From: a bacterium BMS3Abin14
GTDB lineage: Bacteria > BMS3Abin14
Direction: 5' to 3'
Assembly: GCA_002897695.1 (NCBI GenBank)
Contig: BDTG01000029.1
Coordinates: 1-19,030, forward strand
Length of the DNA: 19,030 nucleotides
Part shown: positions 1-8,245 of the stretch, one piece after another
Position numbering within the stretch: the first letter of the stretch is position 1
Layout of the letters: every line of letters starts with the position of its first letter
Notes under the pieces: model-generated
Seen by the model: only the letters and a program-made list of their open reading frames with translations
What the model was told of the DNA's origin: nothing
Databases searched by the model: none
Made by a program: the position numbers and the translations under genes

Positions 1-80
1 AGGGAGGCGGCATGAACAACGCGCTGCCTCTTACCCGGGGAAATTACACCTTAAGTTCAGAGAAGAGTGGTATTGACATT

Positions 81-93
81 GGGGTCCACTATC
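81..93 (+). repeat. IS-like terminal repeat copy (left)
   Basis: The 13-base word GGGGTCCACTATC occurs here, again at 991-1003, and inverted at 932-944. In the later pair it forms the outer arms of a palindromic element. This isolated copy may be the end of an insertion sequence whose body lies left of the window, but no transposase is visible in bases 1-80, so the assignment is an inference. Confidence 0.5.
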
Positions 94-130: not shown

Positions 131-769
131 TTAAGGGGTGTCTTTAAGATTTTCAAAAAACCTCCTAAATTCATCATCTTGAATGTTTATTTTATCGAGA
201 ACATCTTGTTGCGTAAGCCCATATGTATTTGGATGTTGTCCGTCAGATAGTAAATACAAATTAACATTTGAACACTCATTTTTGATTTTATCATGATCAT
301 TTTTTAGGGTTTTACCGCTGTTTTCTAGAGTAGCAATTAAAACGTGATATTTAAGTCGCTTAGAAAACTTACCATGCCTCTTTTCTTTTGATTTTCCATC
401 GGTAAACGTTGTTTCTGTCCCTTGTACAGCCTTGATGCGATCTTCCCATTCCATACAAAATTTATACATTCCATCTCTGTTCCACCCGATATCAGCCTTT
501 ACGTCTATTAAATTTTCGATCGTCTTGTCACCATTCTGAATAACTATATCTGGATATCTCGTCTTTGAAGAGCCGAATCTAACTGGTTGGTCTATGTAAT
601 ATGTACAGTGGTCAGGATTATTAAGGGCAATGAATAGGGCCGTGAGATCTTCGAGCTGACTGGAAATAGACGAACTTCTTCCCCTAAAAATATTTGGATT
701 ATAGTATTTTGTCTCTCTTGATTCTGAATAAAGTTCAATTAGTTTTCTAAAGTACTCTTTCGGTGGCAT
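131..769 (-). CDS. Orphan PD-(D/E)xK nuclease-like protein
   Basis: This 212-residue protein is not a family I can name. A plausible PD-(D/E)xK nuclease core is visible: a helix acid at E40, then RYPD with D74 at the end of a strand, and IDVK with D89 and K91 about 15 residues later. That spacing is typical of restriction endonucleases and related DNA-cutting enzymes. No methyltransferase or specificity gene is present, so a restriction role is only a guess. The gene is markedly AT-rich compared with everything to its right and sits between copies of an IS-like end repeat, both signs of recent transfer. The nearest good Shine-Dalgarno (GGGAGG) lies well over 10 bases upstream of the ATG and no alternative in-frame start is closer, so translation may be weak. 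The gene is complete, with an ATG start and TAA stop. Confidence 0.55.
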   Translation of the reverse strand: MPPKEYFRKLIELYSESRETKYYNPNIFRGRSSSISSQLEDLTALFIALNNPDHCTYYIDQPVRFGSSKTRYPDIVIQNGDKTIENLIDVKADIGWNRDGMYKFCMEWEDRIKAVQGTETTFTDGKSKEKRHGKFSKRLKYHVLIATLENSGKTLKNDHDKIKNECSNVNLYLLSDGQHPNTYGLTQQDVLDKINIQDDEFRRFFENLKDTP

Positions 770-930: not shown

Positions 931-1003
931 TGATAGTGGACCCCCTTTCGGAACATGTCTGTTACACTTTAACAGACTGTCCCTTCTAAGGGGTCCACTA
1001 TCA
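931..1003. mobile_element. 73-bp palindromic IS-end or MITE-like element
   Basis: Perfect 14-base outer arms (TGATAGTGGACCCC at 931-944, its complement at 990-1003) enclose imperfect 12-base segments and then perfect 8-base inner arms (GTCTGTTA at 957-964, TAACAGAC at 970-977) around a 5-base loop CACTT. Read as two halves, it looks like the left and right ends (each about 34 bp) of an insertion sequence abutted head to head. It could be a MITE, the scar of an IS that lost its body, or a strong hairpin. No target duplication is visible (CCT left, AGTGA right). It lies exactly where the DUF2779 reading frame loses its N-terminus, so it or its parent probably caused the truncation. Confidence 0.6.
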
Positions 1004-1048
1004 AGTGAGTATGCCAACCAGAACCTCGATGACAGTTTTCTCCTTGCG

Positions 1049-2911
1049 TTGGCTGGTGGTGGATTTCAAGTGGGTGACCTGGCTAAATGCTATTTCCCCG
1101 GTGGTCATGACATCAAAACGCTGGATCATGAAGAGGCTCTGGCTGAAACTAATCAGCTGCTGCAGCTGGATCAGGTTACAATTTTTGAAGCCGCCATAGC
1201 AACCGAGAAACTTTTTATTCGTGCGGATATTCTGATCAAAAACGGAAATCGACTCAGTCTCTATGAAGTTAAAGCCAAATCCTTTGATCCGGAAGAGGAA
1301 GATCCCTTTGCCAATAAAAACGGGACAATCAAATTGGGCTGGAAGTCCTACCTCTACGATGTTGCCTTCCAGAAGTATGTTGTCAATCAGGCCCTCCCGC
1401 AGTATGAAGTATCAGCCCATCTCATGATGGCTGACAAATCCGCGTCGTGCCCGACTGAGGGCCTTAATAAGAAGTTCCGACTGGTGAAAGACCACAATGG
1501 TCGGAAGTCAGTCTCTGTATCTGATAGCCTGACTGAGGCGGATTTAACACCGCCAATTCTCTGCAAGGTCAATGTGGATGTAGAGTGTGAACAGATTTAT
1601 GCCGGTACGGCTGGTGGCAACGATCCGTCCCTGAGTTTTAACCAGCGAGTTGATCTGTTTGCAGAACACTATGCCTCGGATACGAAAATCCCGTCACCGG
1701 TATCAACTACCTGTTCCGGCTGTGAGTTTTACATCACTGATAATTATGAACAATCAGGATTGAAAAGCGGCAGGAAAGAATGCTGGAAAGAGAATCTGGG
1801 CTGGGATGACAAGGATTTCGAGTGCCAAACAGTGCTGGATGTGTGGAACTTCAGGAAGAAGGAGAAATTGATTGAGGCTGGCTGCATCAAGATGTCGGAC
1901 CTTGCCAAGGAGGATGTGGCTCCAAAGCCCGACATAAAGCCGGGCATATCCGCGAGTGAACGACAGTGGCTGCAGATTGAAAAATACCAGACAGGCGATA
2001 ATACAGTCTGGCTGGACCGAGATAGCTTGCAAAGCGAGATGAATAGCTGGGTGTATCCGCTTCACTTTATTGACTTTGAAACCTCGATGGTGGCCATACC
2101 CTTCAACGCAGGTCGCCGACCTTACGAAGGAATCGCTTTCCAGTTTTCCCACCATATCGTTCGCGAAGACAGCACGGTCGAACACTTTGGTGAGTACCTG
2201 AATACGGAACAGGGAGTATTCCCGAACTACGATTTTGTAAGAGAACTCAAGGCTCAGCTTGAAAAGGATTCCGGAAGCATTTTTCGCTATTCCAACCACG
2301 AAAACACATTTCTCAACATGATTTACACCCAGCTTCAGGCGGACGACACCGTCGAGGATCGGGTGGAACTGTGCAATTTCATCAGATCGATCACCAAGCC
2401 TGTTAATGACTCCGTAGATCAATGTACCGGTGCACGCAATATGGTGGATATGTGGGAAATAGTTAAGCGTTACTATTATGACCCTGCCACCAACGGTTCC
2501 AACTCCATCAAGCAGGTGCTTCCGGCAATCCTGAATAGCTCAAAATATCTGCAGGATAAATATTCAAAACCGATTTACGGTTCCCCAGATGGCATCAAGA
2601 GCCTCAATTTCAAAGCTTGGCAATGGATCAGGTTTGAGGACGGAAAAGTCGTCGATCCATACAAAATGCTGCCTAAGATGTTTCAGGATATCTCTGACAA
2701 GGATATGCTGATTTTGAGCGATGATGAAGAGCTGAGAGACGGAGGAGCTGCCCTGACGGCATATGCCCGAATGCAGTTTGAAGAAATGTCGGATTATGAA
2801 TGGAAGGAGACCCGAAAGGCTCTGCTCAAATATTGCGAATTGGACACCATGGCGATGGTGATGATCTACGAAGGTTGGAAAGACCTTCTGCAACAGGAAC
2901 AACCAGAATAA
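1049..2911 (+). CDS. DUF2779 protein: Cas4-like nuclease plus DEDD-exonuclease-like fusion, 5'-truncated
   Basis: The protein belongs to the DUF2779 family. The N-terminal half is a PD-(D/E)xK nuclease of the Cas4/RecB type: D60, E73 and K75 (in YEVKAKSF), followed by iron-sulfur-type cysteines C222, C225 (CSGCEF) and C245. The C-terminal half (from about residue 335) resembles a DEDDy 3'-5' exonuclease: HFIDFE (D342, E344), YSNHENTF near 414-421, D467 in MVDMW, and Y595 to D599 in KYCELD. The first possible start is a TTG at 1049, but family-like sequence (SEYANQNLDDSFLLALA) continues in frame upstream to 1004, directly against the palindromic element. About 25-40 residues, including the N-terminal cysteine that normally completes the cluster, therefore appear lost. 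No upstream in-frame ATG, GTG or TTG restores them. Likely role in intact relatives is DNA processing or phage defence (inference); here it is probably impaired or a recent pseudogene. Confidence 0.8.
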   Translation: MAGGGFQVGDLAKCYFPGGHDIKTLDHEEALAETNQLLQLDQVTIFEAAIATEKLFIRADILIKNGNRLSLYEVKAKSFDPEEEDPFANKNGTIKLGWKSYLYDVAFQKYVVNQALPQYEVSAHLMMADKSASCPTEGLNKKFRLVKDHNGRKSVSVSDSLTEADLTPPILCKVNVDVECEQIYAGTAGGNDPSLSFNQRVDLFAEHYASDTKIPSPVSTTCSGCEFYITDNYEQSGLKSGRKECWKENLGWDDKDFECQTVLDVWNFRKKEKLIEAGCIKMSDLAKEDVAPKPDIKPGISASERQWLQIEKYQTGDNTVWLDRDSLQSEMNSWVYPLHFIDFETSMVAIPFNAGRRPYEGIAFQFSHHIVREDSTVEHFGEYLNTEQGVFPNYDFVRELKAQLEKDSGSIFRYSNHENTFLNMIYTQLQADDTVEDRVELCNFIRSITKPVNDSVDQCTGARNMVDMWEIVKRYYYDPATNGSNSIKQVLPAILNSSKYLQDKYSKPIYGSPDGIKSLNFKAWQWIRFEDGKVVDPYKMLPKMFQDISDKDMLILSDDEELRDGGAALTAYARMQFEEMSDYEWKETRKALLKYCELDTMAMVMIYEGWKDLLQQEQPE

Positions 2912-2921
2912 AGGTACCAAA

Positions 2922-2987
2922 ATGTCAGCCAACTTGATCGAAACATATAAGCCGATTCTGGGGCAAACCCTAGGGTCGCCCATTTAA
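2922..2987 (+). CDS. Possible truncated start of a downstream gene (21 codons)
   Basis: Ten bases after the DUF2779 stop, a purine-rich AAGG precedes an ATG opening a 21-codon frame (MSANLIETYKPILGQ and a few more residues) ended by TAA. The position and spacing look like the start of a co-transcribed gene cut short. I do not recognise the family, and chance is also possible. Confidence 0.2.
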   Translation: MSANLIETYKPILGQTLGSPI

Positions 2988-3018
2988 AAGGCACCTGTCA
3001 AGGCACAAAAAAAATTAT

Positions 3019-3042
3019 AGCAGGTTTTTTCTCCTGCTTTTC
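3019..3042 (+). terminator. Weak rho-independent terminator candidate
   Basis: A short hairpin, AGCAGG (3019-3024) and CCTGCT (3033-3038) around a T-rich loop, is followed by TTTT. The stem is only 6 bp, so this is a modest candidate for ending transcription from the DUF2779 unit. Confidence 0.35.
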
Positions 3043-3412
3043 ATTCCTGATCACAGATCTCTCGTTGCGCCCTTGATTTCTATTTATCAGGTGTCAGCCT
3101 CAGCTGCATCAGTCACCCATCAGGATCAAGGCCATCTCATCAGCCCCTGTCACATTCCGTGACCCAGAAAACCTTCGGTTCCGTACCGTGTCCATATGTA
3201 TTGTTCAGATCTAATGGTTATTAACCAGCCCCGCGTCGGTTCACGGCACAGGCAGCAAGAACCTGATATCAGTTATGTATTGGCGGGAACGGTTCCCAAT
3301 CAGTTCTCGTGGTTTTTAGCCAACCCCACATATTTCACTTCCCCATCCCTTCCGGTTTCCTCTGTGTAAAACTGAGGCCAAAGCAGAGAAATACAGGTAA
3401 TGGTATTTGACC

Positions 3413-3463: not shown

Positions 3464-3775
3464 ATGAGTCCATCAGTACAGGAAAAACTAAAGGAACTTG
3501 AGGATCTGTGTGAGAGGTTCAGCGTGAAACAGCTGGACATCTTCGGTTCAGCGGCCGATGACACGGCCATCCTCCCGAACGAAAGTGACATCGACTTTCT
3601 TGTGGAATTTCTTCCCCTGAAGGAAAATCAGCACGCCGATGCCTATTTTGGCCTTCTCTTCGCTCTTGAGGGTCTGTTCGGAAGATCTATCGACCTGGTC
3701 ATGATCCAGGCCATCAGCAATCCTTACTTTCGGGATTCGGTGGAGCGGTCAAGAAAGTTGCTTTATGCGGCTTGA
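3464..3775 (+). CDS. MNT-domain nucleotidyltransferase antitoxin
   Basis: This 103-residue minimal nucleotidyltransferase has the family signature FGSA (G28, S29) followed by SDIDFLV (D42, D44) and a third acid in SIDLV (D77). In HEPN/MNT toxin-antitoxin systems (MntA/HepT type) the MNT partner neutralises the HEPN RNase, in characterised cases by transferring AMP to the toxin. The ATG at 3464 has a good ribosome-binding sequence and the length is normal. The stop overlaps the start of the HEPN gene by 11 bases, the usual co-translated arrangement. All catalytic residues appear present, so the antitoxin looks intact although its toxin partner is broken. Confidence 0.85.
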   Translation: MSPSVQEKLKELEDLCERFSVKQLDIFGSAADDTAILPNESDIDFLVEFLPLKENQHADAYFGLLFALEGLFGRSIDLVMIQAISNPYFRDSVERSRKLLYAA

Positions 3776-3997: not shown

Positions 3998-4245
3998 AAT
4001 TCTTTTTGCATCCTGCGCCTGGATCGGTTGATGTCTGCCGATTTTTGCAACTCCCTGATCCTCTTCCGTCGGGGAACTGATGGGGGTCAGGGGATGAATT
4101 GTGGTGTGCCTGACAAAACAAGTTGGAAATACCACAATTCACCCCTTGACCCCATTTAACTCCCAGAGATAAGGAGTCTACATGGGACGGGTTGTATATC
4201 CTTCAACCAGCGAATATGATAATATTCGTGCAGGCGGAGGATGTC
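3998..4245. other. Intergenic region between the two MNT/HEPN loci
   Basis: No gene is supported here. The main content is the long inverted repeat at 4083-4153, followed by the leader of the second MNT gene with a GGAGG ribosome-binding sequence at 4236-4240. Confidence 0.5.
4083..4153. repeat. Long REP/MITE-like inverted repeat
   Basis: The left arm (4083-4105, starting GGGGTCAGGGGATGAATTG) and right arm (4131-4153, ending CACCCCTTGACCCC) are near-perfect complements over about 23 bases, with a 25-base loop. The shape and the GGGGTCA tips resemble REP-type palindromes mobilised by Y1 (RAYT) transposases. No transposase is present in the window. It could also act as a transcription or mRNA-stability barrier between the two toxin-antitoxin loci. 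Confidence 0.7.
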
Positions 4246-4539
4246 ATGAAGAGAAGAGATATCGTACTTGAAAAACTTAAAGACAATGCTGGCGAACTGC
4301 AGCGATTTCACGTTTCCGCTCTGTCCCTTTTCGGTTCCGTTGTTCGGGGAGAGGAGGGCCCCGGCAGCGATGTCGATCTCCTCGTAGAGTTTAACGAACC
4401 CGTCGGAATGTTTACCTTTATACGCCTGAAGAACCATCTGGAAAAACTCCTCGGTGCCAAAGTAGACCTGGTGACGCCTGAGGCCCTTAAGGAAAGGCTC
4501 AGGGACAGGATCCTGAAGGAGGCGATTCGTGCCGCATAG
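4246..4539 (+). CDS. Second MNT-domain nucleotidyltransferase antitoxin
   Basis: This 97-residue protein carries the MNT motif: LFGSVVRG (G30, S31), GSDVDLLVEF (D42, D44) and KVDLV (D74). The ATG at 4246 is preferred over an upstream in-frame start at 4192 because GGAGG sits five bases ahead of it and the family begins near MKRRDIVLEKL. It differs strongly in sequence from the MNT at 3464-3775, so the two loci are separate acquisitions rather than a tandem duplication. The expected role is antitoxin to a HEPN RNase, probably by nucleotidylation. The stop codon overlaps the GTG start of the HEPN remnant by 11 bases, the same geometry as in the first pair. Confidence 0.85.
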   Translation: MKRRDIVLEKLKDNAGELQRFHVSALSLFGSVVRGEEGPGSDVDLLVEFNEPVGMFTFIRLKNHLEKLLGAKVDLVTPEALKERLRDRILKEAIRAA

Positions 4540-7703: not shown

Positions 7704-7937
7704 ATGAGAACCGTGCAAATGACTCTTGATGATGAACTTGTCAAAGCGGTTGATCGGGTTTCGAAGCAACTCCGCACAAGTCGTTCCGCTTTCACAAGAA
7801 GTGCGCTTCGTGAGGCGCTTGCCCGTCACAAACTTGAGCAACTGGAGCGAGAGCACCGTCAGGGCTACGAACGGCATCCGGTTGCTGCCGATGAGGTTTC
7901 GGTCTGGGAAACCGAGCAAGCCTGGGGTGATGAATGA
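7704..7937 (+). CDS. Ribbon-helix-helix antitoxin of a MazEF-like pair
   Basis: This 77-residue protein begins with a ribbon-helix-helix (CopG/Arc-type) DNA-binding domain: the MRTVQMTLDDELVKAVD strand and first helix, then TSRSAFTRSALREAL as the second helix (about residues 1-43). The charged C-terminal tail (about 44-77, rich in E, R and W) is the usual toxin-binding arm. It should neutralise the MazF-type RNase encoded next and repress their shared promoter. Its final codons overlap the toxin start in an ATGA junction. The ATG at 7704 is set by AGGGGG at 7692-7697. Confidence 0.85.
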   Translation: MRTVQMTLDDELVKAVDRVSKQLRTSRSAFTRSALREALARHKLEQLEREHRQGYERHPVAADEVSVWETEQAWGDE

Positions 7938-8245
7938 GACACGGCGAAATACGCTGGTACAAGTTCGGACGACCAGATAAAAAAAGGCCCGTACTTATTC
8001 TTACGCGAAATTCAGTGTTGGAATATCTTGGTGAAGTAACCGTCGCTCCCATTACAAGTACGGTCCGCAATATACCGTCTGAGGTGTTTCTGTCGAAAGC
8101 CGACGGCATGCCCCGGGATTGCGCTGTCAACTGTGACCACCTGCAGACTGTTTTGAAGGGGAAAATCGGATCACTGATCACATCTTTGCCGTCTCGAAAA
8201 ATGGTTGATGTTGGATGGGCAATCCGCTTTGCCCTCGATTTTTGA
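7934..8245 (+). CDS. MazF/PemK-family endoribonuclease toxin
   Basis: This 103-residue protein has the MazF/PemK beta-barrel layout: RHGEIRWYKF at the start, the KKRPVLILTRN strand with R18, VTVAPITSTVR (T41/S42), a GMPRDCAVNCDHLQTV segment and the closing helix VDVGWAIRFALDF. MazF enzymes cleave single-stranded mRNA at short sequences, stopping translation. R18 and the T/S after PI correspond to the usual active-site positions, so it appears complete. It overlaps the RHH antitoxin by four bases and shares its promoter. It is the only toxin in this window without an obvious lesion. Confidence 0.85.
   Translation: MRHGEIRWYKFGRPDKKRPVLILTRNSVLEYLGEVTVAPITSTVRNIPSEVFLSKADGMPRDCAVNCDHLQTVLKGKIGSLITSLPSRKMVDVGWAIRFALDF

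Follow-up and report, generated by a model that had tools for sequence, protein, structure and literature searches.

A 5'-truncated DUF2779 gene at the edge of a collapsed IS3-family element

Proteins with a DUF2779 domain (PF11074) have been assigned to the presumed 3'-5' exonucleases, in RNase H-like family F.17, that also contain DUF83, a PD-(D/E)XK-like domain (PMC3985635). Cas4 and AddB are four-cysteine nucleases that share the arrangement of one N-terminal and three later cysteines, together with the PD-(D/E)XK motif D..EVK, with DUF2779 proteins; unlike them, DUF2779 proteins are fused to a DEDD exonuclease. Cas4 proteins hold their cluster with a single N-terminal cysteine and three C-terminal ones, and substitution of any of the four in the Cas4 protein Sso0001 leads to insoluble protein (PMC3466216). 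A third described system is the IS3-family insertion sequence (IS), with its left and right inverted repeats and orfA leader, along with its internally deleted, MITE-like derivatives. Truncation of an acquired gene in association with an IS is ordinary genome decay and a well-known phenomenon.

The locus described here combines these elements. It lies in a stretch of 19,030 nucleotides (the window), contig 29 of a 2.28-Mb draft genome in 49 contigs with a completeness rating of 100%, and the window begins at the contig edge. The explanation that best accounts for the whole locus, with a probability of roughly 0.8, is that an acquired DUF2779 gene would have lost its 5' end through an IS-linked deletion, that the IS would have collapsed, and that a non-functional remnant of the gene would be left. 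The features on which the argument depends are as follows.

1–93, plus strand: right end of an IS3-family element, with the last orfB codons, a TGA stop at 13–15 and the right inverted repeat GGGGTCCACTATC at 81–93
131–769, minus strand: ORF of 212 aa without a family match, from the ORF list, between two IS ends; GC ~35%
932–1002 (71 bp), minus strand: internally deleted IS3-family element, identified from matches to IS left ends in the window's own genome (contigs 25 and 5) and in genomes G001, G004 and G005
940–944, minus strand: putative deletion junction GGGGT inside the IS remnant, from comparison of left ends, right ends and the window
1006–2911, plus strand: 5'-truncated DUF2779 gene (predicted Cas4-like nuclease and DEDD exonuclease), delimited by PF11074, alignments A1 and A2 and the DNA break point
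1049–1051, plus strand: TTG, the first possible in-frame start, with no Shine-Dalgarno-like sequence upstream
1712–1783, plus strand: the three remaining likely cluster cysteines, C222, C225 and C245 (numbered from TTG1049), in invariant columns of A1 and A2
2959–3317, no strand assigned: second mobile-element relic, probably of the IS110 family, just downstream of the DUF2779 gene

The DUF2779 reading frame is open from 869 to 2911 and matches PF11074 with an E value of 4e-22 (79 bits, versus a gathering score of 23.3). Its first ATG, GTG or TTG is TTG1049, consistent with the claim in the preliminary description that the gene has no upstream start codon. Twelve relatives were taken from public genomes, the nearest of which (~80%–81% identical) is L016, from Sphaerochaeta sp. 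UBA6084; one relative at 44% identity and seven plasmid-borne relatives were added. Six of the seven plasmid-borne sequences entered alignment A2, the seventh (L070) being left out because it is annotated as split, and L026, which has a frameshift, was left out of the alignments. All 12 public-genome relatives extend upstream of the point equivalent to TTG1049 with a segment such as RYLTKSRFKLATECPTKLFYTGK, and no relative examined starts at the TTG position. More broadly, an N-terminal segment of ~28 residues, L(S/T)KSxF...C, with its cysteine conserved, is present in 19/19 relatives whose start was read, which range from 81% to ~23% identity. The first cysteine (C18 in L016) is found in every aligned sequence except that of the window, down to ~23%–26% identity, and is thus constant among the DUF2779 nucleases examined. 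The earlier proposal that intact relatives begin with a short cysteine-containing segment is borne out by this wider alignment. The window frame has neither this cysteine nor a start codon at the family position. Aligned with L016 at the DNA level, the stretch from 1048 back to 1008 matches at 37 of 41 bases, and homology is then lost; the window gene therefore lacks ~28 residues, its start codon and everything further upstream. Family-like sequence had been described as running exactly to 1004, at the edge of the palindrome. It does come near that edge, ending at around 1008–1010.

What would the lost cysteine have done? In an AlphaFold2 model of intact L016 (mean pLDDT 77), residues 1–306 align with Cas4 (7mi4_A; Z 10.6, rmsd 5.3, 201 aligned) and residues 374–661 with DEDD exonuclease domains from DNA polymerases of the B family (Z up to 11.8), in agreement with the published assignment of DUF2779 (PMC3985635). 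As modeled, the intact relatives combine a Cas4-like PD-(D/E)XK nuclease and a DEDD exonuclease in one protein and, because of this likeness, the first cysteine is most likely an iron-sulfur cluster ligand. The window copy, 81% identical to L016, shares the two domains and keeps three of the four cluster cysteines: C222, C225 and C245, correctly numbered in the preliminary description, are encoded at 1712–1714, 1721–1723 and 1781–1783, align with C264, C267 and C287 of L016 (CxxC...C), and are invariant in both alignments. It also keeps the PD-(D/E)XK motif (D...EVK), the DEDD-type motif (FIDFET) and the catalytic D/E residues of both domains, with the invariant D102, E115, K117, D384 and E386 all found in the window protein in A1 and A2. 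It differs from other DUF2779 nucleases in lacking the first ~28 residues, the N-terminal cysteine and the start codon at the family position. By analogy with Cas4 Sso0001, the window protein would fail to fold properly.

What is the palindrome at the edge of the gene? The preliminary description had the gene “decapitated” by a palindromic element of 73 bp. The palindrome is real and measures 77 bp (929–1005), with perfect 16-bp arms (929–944 and 990–1005), an inner stem and a DNA fold z of −7.2. What is added here is its identity. In a same-family genome (G004, contig 9), the right-arm and inner-stem sequence runs straight into orfA and orfB of an IS3-family element, whose products carry HTH_Tnp_1, HTH_21 and rve domains. 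This part of the palindrome is therefore the left end of such an IS with its leader, read leftwards. Copies of this left end in contigs 25 and 5 of the same draft genome and in G001, G004 and G005 match only ~940–1002, without the left arm, so the left arm derives from the other IS end; indeed, it equals the right inverted repeat found in IS copies of this kind, as seen at 81–93 in the window. The remnant thus has a left inverted repeat and ~45 nt of orfA leader from 1002 down to ~945, then a right inverted repeat from 944 to 932, and these terminal repeats are common to the IS with IS3-type orfA and orfB in G004. The sequence GGGGT is common to the leader (AAAGGGGGTAAG, in the contig 25 copy) and the right end (CATTGGGGTCCAC). 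The palindrome is an IS3-family element without its interior, which would have been lost most simply by a short-homology deletion.

The 71-bp element contains no transposase genes and is a remnant rather than a working IS. It shares the inverted repeats and orfA leader of MITE-like derivatives of IS3-family elements; unlike them, it is a single collapsed copy, without a direct target duplication and with no repeated two-ended form seen. A multi-copy MITE was considered and rejected, since the copies in the same genome and in relatives lack the left arm and do not support a two-ended repeat. Exact-tip matches on contigs 16, 21 and 34 of the draft genome are at chance level (eight matches versus seven for the control). 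Immediately outside the IS tips, CTT (929–931) and AAG (1003–1005) are reverse complements of each other, extending the palindrome by 3 bp on each side; this match could arise by chance (1 in 64) or may be the trace of an inversion.

The DUF2779 gene was likely acquired horizontally: 11 other genomes of the same family contain no close relative, only partial matches below 40% identity, and the nearest relatives found are from Sphaerochaeta. A phage or plasmid as the source was rejected because no phage record matched and plasmid relatives are at most ~54% identical. After acquisition, an upstream deletion reaching the end of an IS3-family IS would have removed the promoter, the start codon and the first ~28 codons of the gene, either as an adjacent deletion mediated by the IS or through recombination of two IS copies with each other. 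A deletion between GGGGT repeats would have collapsed the IS, leaving the 77-bp palindrome and, beside it, an open but most likely non-functional frame in which decay has only begun. The earlier suggestion that the missing 5' end might lie elsewhere in the genome and reveal a rearrangement partner did not hold: in the draft genome, which was searched by query only, neither a protein search nor a degenerate pattern with 3 mismatches gave any trace of it. Loss is thus favored over displacement within the genome, with some room left by the contig edge. The absence of the 5' piece from the assembly, together with the lack of a direct target site duplication (3–5 bp) at 932–1002, where the flanks are instead inverted, favors an upstream deletion to the IS end over simple insertion. 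The order of events and the recombination partner are not visible because the contig ends inside an IS. A point against this deletion and collapse is that the internal-deletion model leaves the 3-bp CTT/AAG extension of the palindrome to chance, at 1 in 64.

The right end of an IS at 1–93, whose remaining body lies beyond the contig edge, raises the question of whether the gene was broken by insertion instead of deletion. Positions 3–90 are 85% identical to the IS right end in G004 contig 9 and 79% identical to a degraded copy in contig 5 of the same draft genome. With the contig starting inside this left IS and the two right ends facing each other around 94–931, two inverted IS copies could form a composite transposon that carried the 131–769 gene into the DUF2779 gene, and the missing 5' piece would then lie past the left IS, in DNA that is not part of this contig. 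This is improbable, given that the N-terminal piece was found nowhere in a genome rated 100% complete and that the only other near-complete IS copy in that genome is degraded. A false junction is a further reading, for which a draft in 49 contigs, with a contig edge within an IS and IS ends that are repeated, would speak. Such an assembly error is very improbable, however: with exact arms of only 16 nt and no second, identical copy of the palindrome in the genome, a false join would need very short overlaps, and remnants of the same IS family occur at other sites here and in sister genomes.

Is the remaining frame still used? Its 620 codons contain no stop and no frameshift, and the pairwise dN/dS with L016 is 0.09, which suggests that the gene spent most of its history under selection and that the truncation is recent. 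Decay of the frame is nonetheless visible to a modest degree. Where the other seven genes are invariant, the window carries 13 replacements versus three for L016 (binomial p 0.02), while the branch N/S counts for the window and L016 (62/85 versus 49/89) do not differ significantly (p 0.27). The open frame, the low dN/dS and the intact catalytic D/E residues of both domains would also suit a truncated gene that is still expressed from TTG1049 or GTG1070 and, although it lacks a proper cluster, acts by means of its DEDD exonuclease half; GTG1070 is shortly preceded by a purine-rich stretch, GGTGGTGGA. Continued expression of this kind is unlikely, since a consensus scan of 1–1300 gave no promoter-like match, TTG1049 is not preceded by a Shine-Dalgarno sequence, the protein lacks one cluster ligand and the helix with which the Cas4 fold begins, and invariant residues have been replaced more often than in the sister gene. 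It is more improbable still that the headless protein is produced and serves as an exonuclease-only DUF2779 protein without a cluster, under selection since the IS-linked loss of the cysteine. The window frame is most likely a young pseudogene. Of the two options offered in the preliminary description, a dead gene or a start at TTG1049, the first is better supported by the missing Shine-Dalgarno sequence and the excess of changes at invariant residues.

What are the implications of this locus? It would be a clean example of IS-linked truncation where the IS has all but erased itself, such that a short palindrome is the sole mark of the cause. A short palindrome at the edge of a gene can thus be what is left of a collapsed insertion sequence. 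The locus also calls for caution in annotation, as the 620-aa ORF should not be annotated as a working nuclease.

The surroundings of the gene contain further mobile-element relics and genes of uncertain assignment. The relic at 2959–3317 is 89% and 79% identical to repeats in G004 (contigs 19 and 25) that adjoin transposase-like fragments. A Pfam scan of these fragments was uninformative; one of them shares 81% identity with a stretch of G004 contig 29 that matches PF01548 below the cut-off, and the relic is probably from an IS110-family element. The DUF2779 gene thus appears to sit between two collapsed mobile elements. The window has no Rfam or tRNA match, so an RNA gene or a tRNA-based insertion site was ruled out. 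The 131–769 ORF has no Pfam, NCBIfam, PADLOC or PHROG match and no relatives in viral contigs. Its one relative, at 31% identity over 96%, is a hypothetical protein from a Staphylococcus plasmid, encoded beside an HNH endonuclease gene. Judged by motif only (PDIVIQ...DVK), the ORF product is possibly a PD-(D/E)XK-type nuclease and may be of the restriction type; no methyltransferase gene was seen next to it. Further downstream on the plus strand, two small MNT-like nucleotidyltransferase genes (3464–3775 and 4192–4539) match the PADLOC candidate defence group PDC-S09, and the same variable stretch contains a gene with a PemK/MazF-like toxin domain (7934–8245, plus strand; PF02452). Elsewhere, in the Comamonas aquatica plasmid pB1A (L067, 1492–3069), a DUF2779 gene is truncated at the C-terminal end, and an integrase gene follows shortly after.
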